A model generated the notes under the pieces. That model made no database searches. It worked only from the letters and a program-made list of their open reading frames with translations, and was not told the origin of the DNA. A DNA stretch of 61,997 nt from contig JAILNC010000126.1 in assembly GCA_024691985.1 (NCBI GenBank), positions 1-61,997 on the forward strand, given 5' to 3'. The translations under genes and the position numbers were made by a program. Positions within the stretch are counted from its first letter, which is position 1. Each line of letters starts with the position of its first letter. This DNA is from Oscillospiraceae bacterium. Lineage in GTDB: Bacteria; Bacillota; Clostridia; Oscillospirales; Oscillospiraceae. Shown piece by piece: positions 3,306 through 6,501 of the stretch.

Positions 3306-4088
3306 ATGAGCACCAACACCATTTACGTCTTCTCCGGCAGCGGCAACTGCCTGGACATCGCAAAGAACATCGCCAAAAAGCTGGGCGACACCGACATCGT
3401 CCTGATGCGCGGCGCTCCTGAAAAAACTGACGCCACCGACTCCGAGCGCGTGGGCTTCGTCTTCCCCTGCTACGCGGGCGGCCTGCCCGGCGGCGTGGAG
3501 GAGAGCTTCCGCGCGGTGAAGATCGCCCCGGGGACCTACACCTTCGGCGTGGCGAGCTGCGCCGCCTATCCCGGCGTCGGGCTGAGCGTGCTCGACAGCA
3601 TCCACAAGCTCGACTACTGGAACGTCGTGACGCACCAGTGCTCGTGCATCTGGCTTTTCCCGCACGATCTGATGATGCCGAAGATGGGCGCCGAAAAGGC
3701 GCAGGAGCGCTCCGAGCGGCTGGCGGCCCTGATCGGCGCGGAGGTCCTCGGAGGGGTCAGGAGCGCGAAGGCCCCGAAGGCCAACGCCTTCAACAAGGTC
3801 GAGGCCTCGGCCTGGCCGACGCTCTCGAAGAAGAAGGCCGCGAAGCTCCGGAGCACCGAGGCCTGTGTCGCCTGCGGCCAGTGCGTGCAGCTGTGCCCGA
3901 AAGGCAATATCAGGATCGAGGACGGCCGCGCCGTCTTCGGCAGCGACTGCATCGGCTGTCTCGCCTGCCTGCAGTACTGCCCGCAGGAGGCCATCAACAT
4001 GGGCGGCGTCACCGTCAAACGCGAGCGCTACCACAACCCGAAGGTCTCCGCCGCGGAGCTCATGCAGAAGATCATCCACGTCGAGTGA
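3306..4088 (+). CDS. EFR1-family flavodoxin-ferredoxin fusion
   Basis: A 260-residue cytoplasmic electron carrier. The N-terminal half is a flavodoxin-like domain with the FMN phosphate loop FSGSGN (about 9-14). The C-terminal part carries two 4Fe-4S clusters: CVACGQCVQLCP (Cys187, 190, 193, 197) and CIGCLACLQYC (Cys215, 218, 221, 225). This order defines the EFR1 family, common in anaerobic Clostridia; the redox partner is not known. The ATG follows AGAAAGAAGG. Single gene with its own terminator. Confidence 0.9.
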   Translation: MSTNTIYVFSGSGNCLDIAKNIAKKLGDTDIVLMRGAPEKTDATDSERVGFVFPCYAGGLPGGVEESFRAVKIAPGTYTFGVASCAAYPGVGLSVLDSIHKLDYWNVVTHQCSCIWLFPHDLMMPKMGAEKAQERSERLAALIGAEVLGGVRSAKAPKANAFNKVEASAWPTLSKKKAAKLRSTEACVACGQCVQLCPKGNIRIEDGRAVFGSDCIGCLACLQYCPQEAINMGGVTVKRERYHNPKVSAAELMQKIIHVE

Positions 4089-4094
4089 ACGCAA

Positions 4095-4123
4095 ATGCCC
4101 CCGCCGACACGGCGGGGGCGTTT
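4095..4123 (+). terminator. Intrinsic terminator after EFR1 gene
   Basis: GCCCCCGCC (4097-4105) pairs with GGCGGGGGC (4111-4119), followed by GTTTC. Confidence 0.75.
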
Positions 4124-4250
4124 CACACCTTTCTCAAACTATCGTATTTTGTGCAAAATGTCAAGAGAAAATGCAGGATGCTTTCAGAAAATGAAGCACA
4201 TTTGTCAAAATGCACAAAGGCGAGGCGGTTTTTTCGGTCAGCATCCCATC

Positions 4251-4279
4251 TTGTAAAACGCCGGGGGCCGTGCTATATT
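4251..4279 (+). promoter_or_regulatory. Promoter of the structured RNA
   Basis: TTGTAA (4251-4256), 17-nt spacer, TATATT (4274-4279). Predicted start near 4286. No credible protein gene follows before the next terminator. Confidence 0.7.
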
Positions 4280-4510
4280 GTAATCACAAAGGGGTGAACC
4301 CAATGTACCGAGTATCCCCCAGATCATGAATCGGCGTGATCAAACACGGGGGGAGCGCTGTAAGCCCAAAATATGCAGGAGGACAGCAGCCAACCTTGAG
4401 AAGGACCCACATTTGGGTTAGTCCCGAGCGGACAAAAGATGCGGTTTGAGCTGGAGAAATGTGTCCCGTTGGCTAAGGCAGCGCCCGAAATACGAGAAAG
4501 AGAGGTAACC

Positions 4511-4543
4511 ATGATGTTAGATACCAAGAATTCAAAGAAATGA
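4511..4543 (+). CDS. Possible 10-residue ORF at the end of the structured RNA
   Basis: An ATG at 4511 follows GAGAGGT at a sensible distance and opens a 10-codon frame (MMLDTKNSKK) whose stop lies inside the terminator stem. GGTA of the ribosome site (4504-4507) could pair with TACC (4306-4309) at the 5' side of the RNA. It may be a leader peptide or coincidence. Confidence 0.2.
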   Translation: MMLDTKNSKK

Positions 4544-4605
4544 CCCTTGACTGCAGAAGAGGCGAACGGGAAAAAATCGCCGCGGTCAAGGGTCATTTCG
4601 TATTT
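4537..4605 (+). terminator. Terminator of the structured RNA
   Basis: GAAATGACCCTTGAC (4537-4551) pairs perfectly with 4585-4599 around a 33-nt loop, followed by GTATTTT. Confidence 0.55.
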
Positions 4606-4663
4606 TAAACGGGTTTTGCGCGCCGGGTTTTTGGCGCTTTTTTCTTTTTTCGGGAGCGGCATT

Positions 4664-4812
4664 TGTAGGGGGCGGCGCCTCGACGCCCCGCGCGGGACAG
4701 ATGTAAAACAGCAATAAATGTGCGGCGAATCCGTTGCTTGTGACGAATTTGCCGTACATTTATTCAGTATGAATGCAGGATTCTGCCGGGCCGCCGAGGG
4801 CGGCGGCCCCTG
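4664..4812. repeat. Dispersed repeat, single copy of the 53-kb tandem family
   Basis: Begins TGTAGGGGGCGGCGCCTCG and contains the same central palindrome (TGCGGCGAATCCGTTGC...) and the same GCCGGGCCGCC end as the two tandem units at 53.3-53.7 kb. It fills most of the space between the structured RNA and the GT39-like gene. No gene seen here. Confidence 0.8.
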
Positions 4813-4829: not shown

Positions 4830-6362
4830 TTATGCCCTCCATAGCACATTGAACACGCCGTGCCTCTCCGCGGTGAAGCCCAGCGTTTCCCAGGGCGTCA
4901 GGTCCGTCCCCGCCCAGAGGATGTAGACGCCCTCGGGGTCGAGAGGCATCTCCGCGTCCTCATACAGGCGAAAGCGCGTGAAGCTGCGCGCGTTCAGATA
5001 AGCCGCGGGCCAGTCCTCGTATTCTGCGGTCGAAGCGAAGTCCCGGGGCGGGACGCGGGCATAGAGCAGCAGCTTCGGATAGTGGATCGCGCTCGTCGCG
5101 TAGACCGTACCCTCGTGCGAGACGGCGGCCTCCACGGCCTCGCCGACCCCGTCGGTGAAGGCGCCGCGCAGGCTCTCGGCGTAGGGGCCGAAGTAGGAGA
5201 CGGCGAAGAAGGCGAAGAAGCAGAGATACACGGCGGCGCAGGCCGCGAAGCCCGCCCGCGCGAAGCGGCCCGCGTGCGTAAGCAGGGTCTCGAGCCCGTG
5301 GGCGGCGCAGAGCACCAGCGGCAGCAGCAGGATGTTCACGCGGTTGGCGTTGGCACTGATCAGCAGTCCCAGTGCGAGCCCCGCGAGGGTCCAGAGCAGC
5401 AGGGGCACGGCCGCGTCGAAGCGCCGCCCTTTCAGCGAGCGGACAAAGCGGACGAAGAGCGAGCCGAGGCCGAGCAGCGCGAAGGGCAGAGAGATCGGAT
5501 AGAACAGGCCGAAGGGCGTCGGCGTGTTCCAGACCAGCCCATCCGAGCGGCCCAGCAGGAGCTTGAACAGATTGCGGGCGTTTCGCGGGATACGCCGCAG
5601 CGAGAGCTCCCAGGCGCGCATCACGAGCAGCTTCGGCACCGAGAAGGGGCCGAGGGAGAATTCTCCGATCAGGCCGTAGTTGACGGCGAGGAAGAGAAGC
5701 AGCGGCAGGGCCAGCGCCGCGAGGAGCAGGGCGGAAACCAGCAGCTCCCGGCTTCTCTTGGGCCGCGCGTACAGGAGCAGGGCCAGGAGCAGCAGGGGCG
5801 TCACCGGCCAGATGGCCGAGTACGCGTAGAGCGAGAGCCCGTAGAACAGGGCCGACAGGAGATAGAAGCGGGGCTGCTCCATCCCGCGCAGGAAGCAGCA
5901 CAGGCCGAAGAGCAGCAGTCCCGGCGCGAGGTTCGATTCCAGCGCCCAGCGCCCCGCGGCGATATGCCAGGGACACACGGCCAGCAGCAGCGCGAACAGA
6001 AGGCCCGCGCGCCCGCCCCCGATGCGGCGGCCGAGGCGGTATGCTGCCCAGACGCTCAGCAGGGAGATCAGGACCTGCGGCAGACGGACGACCCAGGTAT
6101 GGACGCCGAAAACGGCGAGCAGCGGGATGAGCAGGTAAGTCTCAAGCGCGTTCATGCCGCTGCCCCAGGCGGTCAGATAGACCGGCCAGGCGCGCAGGGA
6201 GCTGTCGACCCCGCTCGTCAGCAGGGCCCAGGCCTCGTAGGCGGCAAAGGCCTCGTCCTGGTTGAGGCCGCAGGGCACGGCGCCGAAGCGCCACAGCCGC
6301 GCGAAGGCCCCCAGAACGAGGATGGCCGCGAGTATCCACTTGTCGCGCCTGCGCTCTGCCAT
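4830..6362 (-). CDS. Multi-span membrane glycosyltransferase, GT39-like
   Basis: A 510-residue membrane protein with roughly ten to twelve hydrophobic spans and an acidic loop after the first one (LNQDEAFAAYEAW, about 36-48). That is the layout of lipid-linked sugar transferases of the GT39/ArnT/PMT type; the Asp-Glu pair is the expected catalytic region. The C-terminal 110 residues are mostly outside the membrane. Start 6362 was chosen for its GGGAG ribosome site; the longer frame upstream is encoded by a palindromic repeat. Single gene; donor and acceptor unknown. Confidence 0.65.
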   Translation of the reverse strand: MAERRRDKWILAAILVLGAFARLWRFGAVPCGLNQDEAFAAYEAWALLTSGVDSSLRAWPVYLTAWGSGMNALETYLLIPLLAVFGVHTWVVRLPQVLISLLSVWAAYRLGRRIGGGRAGLLFALLLAVCPWHIAAGRWALESNLAPGLLLFGLCCFLRGMEQPRFYLLSALFYGLSLYAYSAIWPVTPLLLLALLLYARPKRSRELLVSALLLAALALPLLLFLAVNYGLIGEFSLGPFSVPKLLVMRAWELSLRRIPRNARNLFKLLLGRSDGLVWNTPTPFGLFYPISLPFALLGLGSLFVRFVRSLKGRRFDAAVPLLLWTLAGLALGLLISANANRVNILLLPLVLCAAHGLETLLTHAGRFARAGFAACAAVYLCFFAFFAVSYFGPYAESLRGAFTDGVGEAVEAAVSHEGTVYATSAIHYPKLLLYARVPPRDFASTAEYEDWPAAYLNARSFTRFRLYEDAEMPLDPEGVYILWAGTDLTPWETLGFTAERHGVFNVLWRA

Positions 6363-6388
6363 GCCTGCTCCCATGTGCAAATAAATGC

Positions 6389-6501
6389 TCGTCATTCCGA
6401 GCCGGTGCGCACACTGGCGCGGGAATCCGTCCTTCCGGGCTTCGATGAGGGGAAATACGGATTGCCACACCGGTGACGTCGGTCACCGGTTCGCAATGAC
6501 G
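6389..6501. repeat. Bipartite palindromic repeat (BIME-like)
   Basis: Two inverted copies of one unit: CGTCATTCCGAGCCGG... (6390-6430) and ...ACGGATTGCCACACCGG through CGCAATGACG (6457-6501). Each half is itself a hairpin. Single units recur at 36578-36618 and 38121-38161. It lies upstream of the GT39-like gene and provides a false N-terminal extension of its frame. Confidence 0.85.

Follow-up and report, generated by a model that had tools for sequence, protein, structure and literature searches.

Genomic setting and features of the element

The window, the whole 61,997 nucleotide stretch of Oscillospiraceae DNA that was analysed, carries at positions 4251-4605 what reads from its sequence as a standalone structured-RNA gene with a predicted transcript. 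It lies between a ferredoxin-like gene (3306-4088, + strand) and a membrane-protein ORF (4830-6470, - strand), both named by eye, and the next gene after the element is therefore on the opposite strand. The element belongs to a family of RNA genes, found in Clostridia of the gut, that has apparently not been described before. The features of the locus are:

4097..4119, - strand: terminator-like hairpin that would terminate the divergent tiny RNA; its U-tract (ATTTGCGTTC) is weak here
4136..4164, - strand: promoter of the divergent tiny RNA, TTGACA-17-TAGTTT, with a start near 4129 (GGUGUG...)
4199..4218, no strand assigned: conserved upstream box 1 (CATTTGTCAAAATGCACAAA; consensus near AWTTTCTGnGTTTTGCACAA), from column conservation
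4231..4250, no strand assigned: conserved upstream box 2 (TTTTCGGTCAGCATCCCATC), adjoining the -35, from column conservation
4251..4279, + strand: promoter of the long RNA, TTGTAA-17-TATATT, with an extended -10 (TGC) and a predicted start near 4286
4303..4329, + strand: ORF1 region, Shine-Dalgarno-like AAAGGGGTGA and then ATGTAC...
4315..4486, + strand: structured core, with covariation in alignments A3, A6, and A7 (models R2 and R3)
4317-4320/4348-4351 and 4322-4326/4337-4341, + strand: core helices
4355-4361/4478-4483 and 4364-4366/4471-4473, + strand: core helices
4377-4384/4463-4469 and 4387-4393/4446-4453, + strand: core helices
4405-4408/4415-4418 and 4421-4424/4430-4433, + strand: core helices
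4496..4506, + strand: extended Shine-Dalgarno of ORF2 (GAAAGAGAGGT), kept in nearly all R1 matches
4514..4543, + strand: ORF2 (ATGTTAGATACCAAGAATTCAAAGAAATGA), MLDTKNSKK*, with its stop codon inside the terminator stem
4537..4599, + strand: 3' stem of 18 bp (arms 4537-4554 and 4582-4599), which holds the ORF2 stop codon
4561-4565/4577-4581, + strand: inner 5 bp stem within the 3' stem
4620..4648, + strand: second, canonical intrinsic terminator (GCGCCGGGTTTTTGGCGC-TTTTTT), terminator hairpin 4620-4637

The initial annotation of this region had described a large RNA that is structured and has a promoter and a terminator of its own, which agrees with the covariation, promoter, and terminators found here. 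It placed the start of the RNA at a consensus promoter, and TTGTAA-17-TATATT with TG ahead of the -10 is indeed present at 4251-4279; it placed the end at a 15 bp stem, where there is a stem, but one of 18 bp. That no protein gene follows is correct for the downstream sequence, but the RNA itself holds a short ORF. The reading as RNA only was thus incomplete, there being a conserved ORF of 8-10 codons that ends in the terminator stem and one of 2-3 codons that opens many copies. ORF2, together with ORF1 in many copies, the divergent promoter, and the two conserved boxes are features additional to that description. Of 210 copies, 80 have a second terminator of this kind; for random stretches the figure is 13 of 511.

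A conserved structured core

The sequence from 4280 to 4612 folds with a predicted energy of -111 kcal/mol, compared with -87.5 ± 5.2 kcal/mol for 100 shuffled sequences, none of which is as low (z -4.5). At least six compatible helices had been noticed originally, with covariation in homologues as the check; eight are present in the core, and pairs that change on both sides are seen in homologues more often than in shuffled or slid controls. In A3, an alignment of 11 close relatives including the window that was made with MAFFT by sequence alone and was not fitted to the model, 99.1% of cells in the 63 pairs are paired and 13 of the pairs have changed at both partners, where shuffling gives 4.1 ± 1.5 and sliding the partners 0-1; these changes fall in five of the eight core helices. 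In the wider alignment A6, both partners have changed in 30 of 40 core pairs (9.6 ± 2.3 with shuffling, 4-8 with sliding) and all eight helices carry such changes, while in A7 there are 35 of 40 pairs (27.7 ± 2.0 shuffled) and 237 cells (74 ± 7 shuffled). Since fitting to the model was part of making A6 and A7, their pair counts are biased towards the structure.

A core model made from window positions 4315-4486 (R2) matches in 8 of 61 genomes of the genus, which indicates that evolutionary change is much quicker in the core than at either end of the element. Weak R2 matches in L091, L096, L014, and L148 are directly upstream of the ORF2 Shine-Dalgarno, and one in L052 is on the wrong strand. 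The wider core set omits L052, where the match is on the strand opposite its elements, and L005 as a near duplicate, as well as L002, which is cut short, and L036, L053, and L080, which were assumed to be duplicates from equal or nearly equal scores, their sequences unchecked. When 200 of the collected loci were searched with the iterated core model R3, with matches taken to E 0.5, there were 26 matches outside the training set. A script placed 24 of these on the right strand, 7-30 nt upstream of the Shine-Dalgarno of ORF2. The 25th (L027) is correctly placed by eye, and that in L138 is not. Thus the core is common to diverged copies. It differs greatly among them, with little or no core in the shortest copies, L097 and L009, and is therefore dispensable in some.

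In 54 of 213 copies there is a hairpin with a near-constant loop, YCYC-RC[AU]UA-GRGR, mostly at -87 to -109 before the ORF2 ATG, with a few of the 54 matches elsewhere. The loop may be a contact site.

A pseudoknot had also been suggested between AACCC at 4297 and GGGTT at 4415. Of the ten A3 sequences that reach the 5' end, AACCC is present only in the window and in L003, both AACCC and GGGTT being absent from the remaining eight; moreover, GGGT at 4415-4418 pairs with 4405-4408 in a conserved hairpin. The pseudoknot is rejected on account of this lack of conservation and of the conflict with the hairpin.

Short reading frames at the ends of the RNA

The 3' part of the element was searched for with a covariance model built from 28 sequences (R1), its matches being selected without recourse to an exact pattern. 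Copies were also collected by pattern, giving 149 distinct copies from loci found largely by demanding a Shine-Dalgarno and an ATG; 148 copies have enough sequence for the frame of ORF2 to be followed, and 118 of the 148 are non-redundant. Since the search pattern contained the Shine-Dalgarno, its conservation in the 118 copies is partly built in. In 116 of the 118 the frame closes after 9 codons (101 copies) or 8 codons (15 copies), using TGA (55), TAA (46), or TAG (17) across the set, and in the other two the stop is lost and the frame runs on. The stem motif, recognised in 96 of the copies but not in the other 22, is at a distance of 29 or 26 nt and never in another phase. In the window there is a second possible start, an ATG at 4511 that would give MMLDTKNSKK*.

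The R1 matches from the order place no requirement on the ATG. Of 97 rows, 72 were used, 24 having been dropped as lying on the opposite strand over rows that were kept, and L221:2858-2967 also having been left out. A start followed by (x)-[LI][DE] is kept in 64 of these 72. Within the R1 matches the codons exchange synonymously, with leucine as TTA, TTG, CTG, CTA, or CTC, and GAT for GAC, GAA for GAG, and AAG for AAA. The eight misfits are three weak matches (L226, L227, L228), one with the stop lost (L192), and four variants (L214, L216, L223, L224: MTEP, MKTD, MEPT, and no ATG). The synonymous changes and in-frame insertions and deletions support ORF2 as a coding sequence; the coding signature is strong, and translation is predicted from it. 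ORF2, at 8-10 codons, is present in nearly every recognised copy, in part by construction as copies are recognised by their 3' part. The peptides, MLDTKNSKK and relatives, are by eye hydrophilic and not hydrophobic, at 8-10 residues. In L199, L209, L211, L212, L213, L219, L220, L221, and the second copy in L162, ORF2 starts M[LI]EP rather than MLDxK.

At the 5' end, the ORF1 motif is recognised in 65 of 159 copies with a good promoter, and the remaining 94 do not fit it, some showing remnants. ORF1 stops after 2-3 codons in 57 of the 65 (ATG-TAC-Ann-TAA and variants with TGA or TAG); in the two alternative frames, the numbers that close within 4 codons are 17 and 2. The window has lost the early stop and reads MYRVSPRS*, where the sibling copy L003 reads ATG TAC TGA. 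A minigene has reportedly been found within a toxin-antitoxin operon.

Predicted pairing with the 3' end of 16S rRNA is -15.4 kcal/mol for the ORF2 Shine-Dalgarno of the window. The medians are -14.6 kcal/mol for the ORF2 site (149 copies) and -16.0 for the ORF1 site (65 copies), against -8.7 for 266 genes with uncurated starts, an assumed 16S tail sequence having been used. By this prediction both sites rank among the strongest 5-8% of genes. The cry3A mRNA, whose 5' end is protected by a 30S subunit bound at a STAB-SD sequence, offers a precedent for such protection (PMC4113751). The similarity is in the Shine-Dalgarno-like sequence near the 5' end, which would hold a 30S subunit; the present family differs in the ORF of 2-3 codons after the site in many copies and in the second strong site near the 3' end.

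The rank of the two sites would fit an RNA that acts as a sponge for ribosomes or translation factors, in which the strong Shine-Dalgarno and minigene ends engage 30S subunits or provoke peptidyl-tRNA drop-off, so that translation is lowered when the promoter is on and the core is a scaffold. The shortest copies, which retain little besides the two minigenes, are consistent with this. The covariation of the core between diverged copies indicates that the core matters, however, and the ORF2 stop codons and L/I-D/E residues that are kept would be needless in a pure sponge, which makes this account rather unlikely, if the best placed of the alternatives.

A divergent promoter at discrete spacings

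Of 221 copies, 213 were retained, of which 147 have a good promoter and 135 of those have at least 150 nt upstream. Of the 135, 108 have a near-consensus divergent promoter, against 5 when the opposite strand of that stretch is read, and a perfect-stem terminator follows the divergent promoter in 63 of the 108. The tiny RNA would be ~25-55 nt long, with only G-U-U-G(GG) at its start conserved. The divergent promoter of the window is weak at its -10 (TAGTTT), the terminator tail is poor, and the hairpin at 4097-4119 is directly after the ferredoxin-like gene and doubles as its terminator.

Among 133 copies examined for the distance between the two -35 boxes, 110 have the divergent promoter, and in 99 of the 110 the gap is 64-66, 73-76, or 84-87 bp (86 bp in the window), a spacing that was not built into their selection. 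These clusters correspond in sequence distance to steps of one helical turn. Together with the boxes between the promoters, the conservation of which was measured in 142 long-RNA promoters with a 17 nt spacer, the helical spacing points to a protein bound between them. A scan for the boxes in the collected loci and the window gave 492 matches, 319 of them no more than 420 nt upstream of a copy. Among the other 173, inspection by eye shows some of the top matches to be additional copies of the element whose RNA is longer (L218, L222, L173, L039); the rest of the 173 include some without explanation. In these four loci the promoter and boxes are ~440-660 nt upstream of ORF2, which would suggest that some of the RNAs may far exceed the length of that in the window.

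The layout recalls type I toxin-antitoxin modules: a near-consensus promoter would give a short RNA with its own terminator, and the mRNA read in the opposite direction has a tiny ORF behind a long structured leader. In such a module the tiny RNA would be the antitoxin and the long RNA the mRNA of a small toxic peptide or of toxic minigenes. Divergent loci of the tisB/istR-1 layout are described, with antisense complementarity of 18 nt or more (PMC4147584). The present family is like tisB/istR-1, shoB/ohsC, and zorO/orzO in that a short, divergent, constitutive RNA would face a regulated one in which a small ORF follows a long structured leader, a divergent short RNA with both promoter and terminator being predicted from the sequences of 63 of the 135 copies. 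It is unlike them in having no general antisense complementarity, in its hydrophilic peptide of 8-10 residues, and in promoters locked at discrete helical spacings. We know of no counterpart to this locking among type I toxin-antitoxin loci.

The first 16 nt of the tiny RNA pair with the long RNA of their own copy no better than in other pairs. For the first 45 nt there is an own-pair excess of -0.92 (p 0.0026), but the reversed tiny sequence nearly reproduces it (-0.82, p 0.0068), and so it is mostly composition. The exception is L085, where the tiny RNA begins CAUUGGG, matches the CCCAAUG start of its own long RNA, and pairs far better than expected. With no general antisense match, a tiny RNA conserved only at its start, and a short peptide that is not hydrophobic, a module of this type is decidedly unlikely.

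Distribution, copy number, and neighbouring genes

By blastn against 60 relatives, the 3' part is present in nearly all genomes of the genus. R1 matches 58 of the 61 at E ≤ 0.01 (G079 weakly), with 90 distinct places in the 58, at 1-6 per genome; these counts exclude opposite-strand rows, in which the terminator stem matches its own complement. In genomes drawn from the order R1 matches 49 of 295, or 31 of 225 good ones, and in those drawn from the class 22 of 391, these being its own genome and 21 others, 19 with E < 1e-7. In the draw from the phylum there are matches in 3 of 398: its own genome, one weak match in the same class, and one weak match outside it. A pattern scan of species genomes found at least 120 stretches. 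Among the 80 matches listed, 46 are Oscillospiraceae or Ruminococcaceae and the others are nearly all Clostridia, Clostridiales, Eubacteriales, Ruminiclostridium, or Candidatus Scatomorpha, with one Bacillota and one 'uncultured bacterium'; many of the listed matches are from ruminants.

The genome of the window has a second copy (L002, G000:C58:33040-33147), which is cut by a contig end and is 83% identical over the matched core. Tandem copies are present in L127, L069, L073, L052, L054, L118, and L129, short and long forms are side by side in L006, L069, and L073, and one genome, G078, has six element places.

The number of places per genome, the tandem copies (L127, L069, L052), and the patchy presence across families might suggest a small mobile element or a repeat, the promoters and hairpins of which would serve its own propagation. 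No transposase was recognised as a recurrent neighbour, however, and the left-hand hairpins vary between copies. Neighbours are shared in 37 of 54 copy pairs at 90% identity or more and rarely in distant pairs, as would be expected of resident genes with local duplication; at least one pair scored as unshared, L001 and L003, has a gene in common by eye. No match to window positions 4240-4640 was found by blastn in 50,697 phage records. In IMG/VR the degenerate pattern found nothing and the exact pattern a single contig end. Mobility of this kind is considered very improbable. At that contig end (L032:6160-6194, IMGVR_UViG_3300014057_000130) the last 35 bases of the viral contig are the Shine-Dalgarno and ORF2 start, fused to an ORF that by eye resembles a phage tape-measure gene; this is probably an assembly junction at a repeat.

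Linkage to any particular gene, and with it cis-regulation of a neighbour, was considered and rejected, as there is no recurrent neighbour and the orientation of the flanks is mixed. Among the genes that flank the 149 copies, no family recurs in more than 8 loci, and the next downstream ORF is on the same strand for 67 copies and on the opposite strand for 68, in loci of up to 8 kb, many of them 3 kb. A cis-acting leader or attenuator, in which translation of ORF2 governs the terminator and hence a downstream gene, would accord with the stop codon in the terminator stem, with the second terminator that often follows, and with the leaders of similar ORF size considered below, but it is largely contradicted by these neighbour data, from loci many of which span a few kb, and by the gene on the other strand in the window, and is the least probable explanation of all.

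Comparison with known RNA families

A cmscan of the whole window against Rfam 15 gave no matches at the gathering score, and for 4100-4760 at E values up to 10 there are just four chance matches to microRNA and lncRNA models. Twenty related loci likewise have no Rfam match on the element, three tRNAs being outside it. That no family fits supports the original suggestion of a possible new class. The raiA motif had been offered as one option, which finds no support here; the raiA model has no match in the window, nor in 4100-4760 to E 10, and a search of the genome for raiA (RF03072) found none, with the control genomes equally silent. OLE, GOLLD, and ROOL are large intergenic structured RNAs, standalone and with their own transcription unit. 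They share traits with the element of the window, but there are no matches to their Rfam models at gathering thresholds.

The raiA RNA, ModT, is described as a standalone structured RNA of Clostridia that acts in trans (PMC11706538). The family has the same character, insofar as it too would act in trans, and differs in its short ORFs, extended Shine-Dalgarno sites, and divergent promoter. Leaders with an upstream ORF of the size of ORF2 and a terminator are known (PMC8632094, PMC11109978). Like the odc1, ilvB, and fthC leaders, the element has a short conserved ORF, and ilvB and fthC also have a terminator hairpin, but those are upstream of a constant gene and no gene appears to be cis-regulated by the present family. 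No description of the element was found among the literature matches listed, and the supplements of PMC8040213, PMC11109978, and PMC8632094 may list it. Standalone structured RNAs and dual-function RNAs are kinds of element that are already known; the system of paired minigenes with phase-locked divergent promoters may be categorically new.

A proposed role for the RNA

The gene family, its fold, the coding signature of ORF2, and the divergent promoter with its phasing can be read from the DNA itself. From these we infer a function, in which transcription, translation, a regulator, action in trans, and protection by ribosomes would go further than the sequence. The reading preferred here, to which a probability of about 0.4 is given, is a new family of standalone genes for a regulated, trans-acting, ribosome-loaded structured RNA with a dual function. 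A regulated promoter would produce an RNA of ~320 nt, the core of which has a conserved branched fold, with very strong Shine-Dalgarno sites and minimal ORFs at its ends, ORF2 nearly always and ORF1 in a large subset. A putative DNA-binding regulator between the phase-locked divergent promoters would select either the long RNA or the tiny constitutive RNA. The folded core would act in trans, and ribosomes recruited at the ends would protect the RNA and couple its lifetime or folding to translation. The ORF2 nonapeptide may add a function of its own; the conservation of its first residues suggests that the peptide matters. Ribosomes on ORF2 would have to open the 3' stem, however, and the RNA could be destabilised rather than protected by them.

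A more tentative proposal is that the locus is a new kind of genetic switch, with two divergent promoters locked in helical phase. One would make the tiny RNA with its terminator and the other the structured RNA with a minigene on either side, and ribosomes seated at both ends of the latter would set its lifetime or fold, such that the RNA would report on or throttle translation in gut Clostridia.

The element seems to have escaped annotation through being neither an ordinary protein gene nor a member of an Rfam family. An RNA gene in 58 of 61 genomes of a genus, and scattered in other gut Clostridia, thus appears to have been overlooked by annotation. Structured trans-acting RNAs, minimal ORFs, and facing promoters in fixed helical phase, which are for the most part investigated separately, would come together in it.
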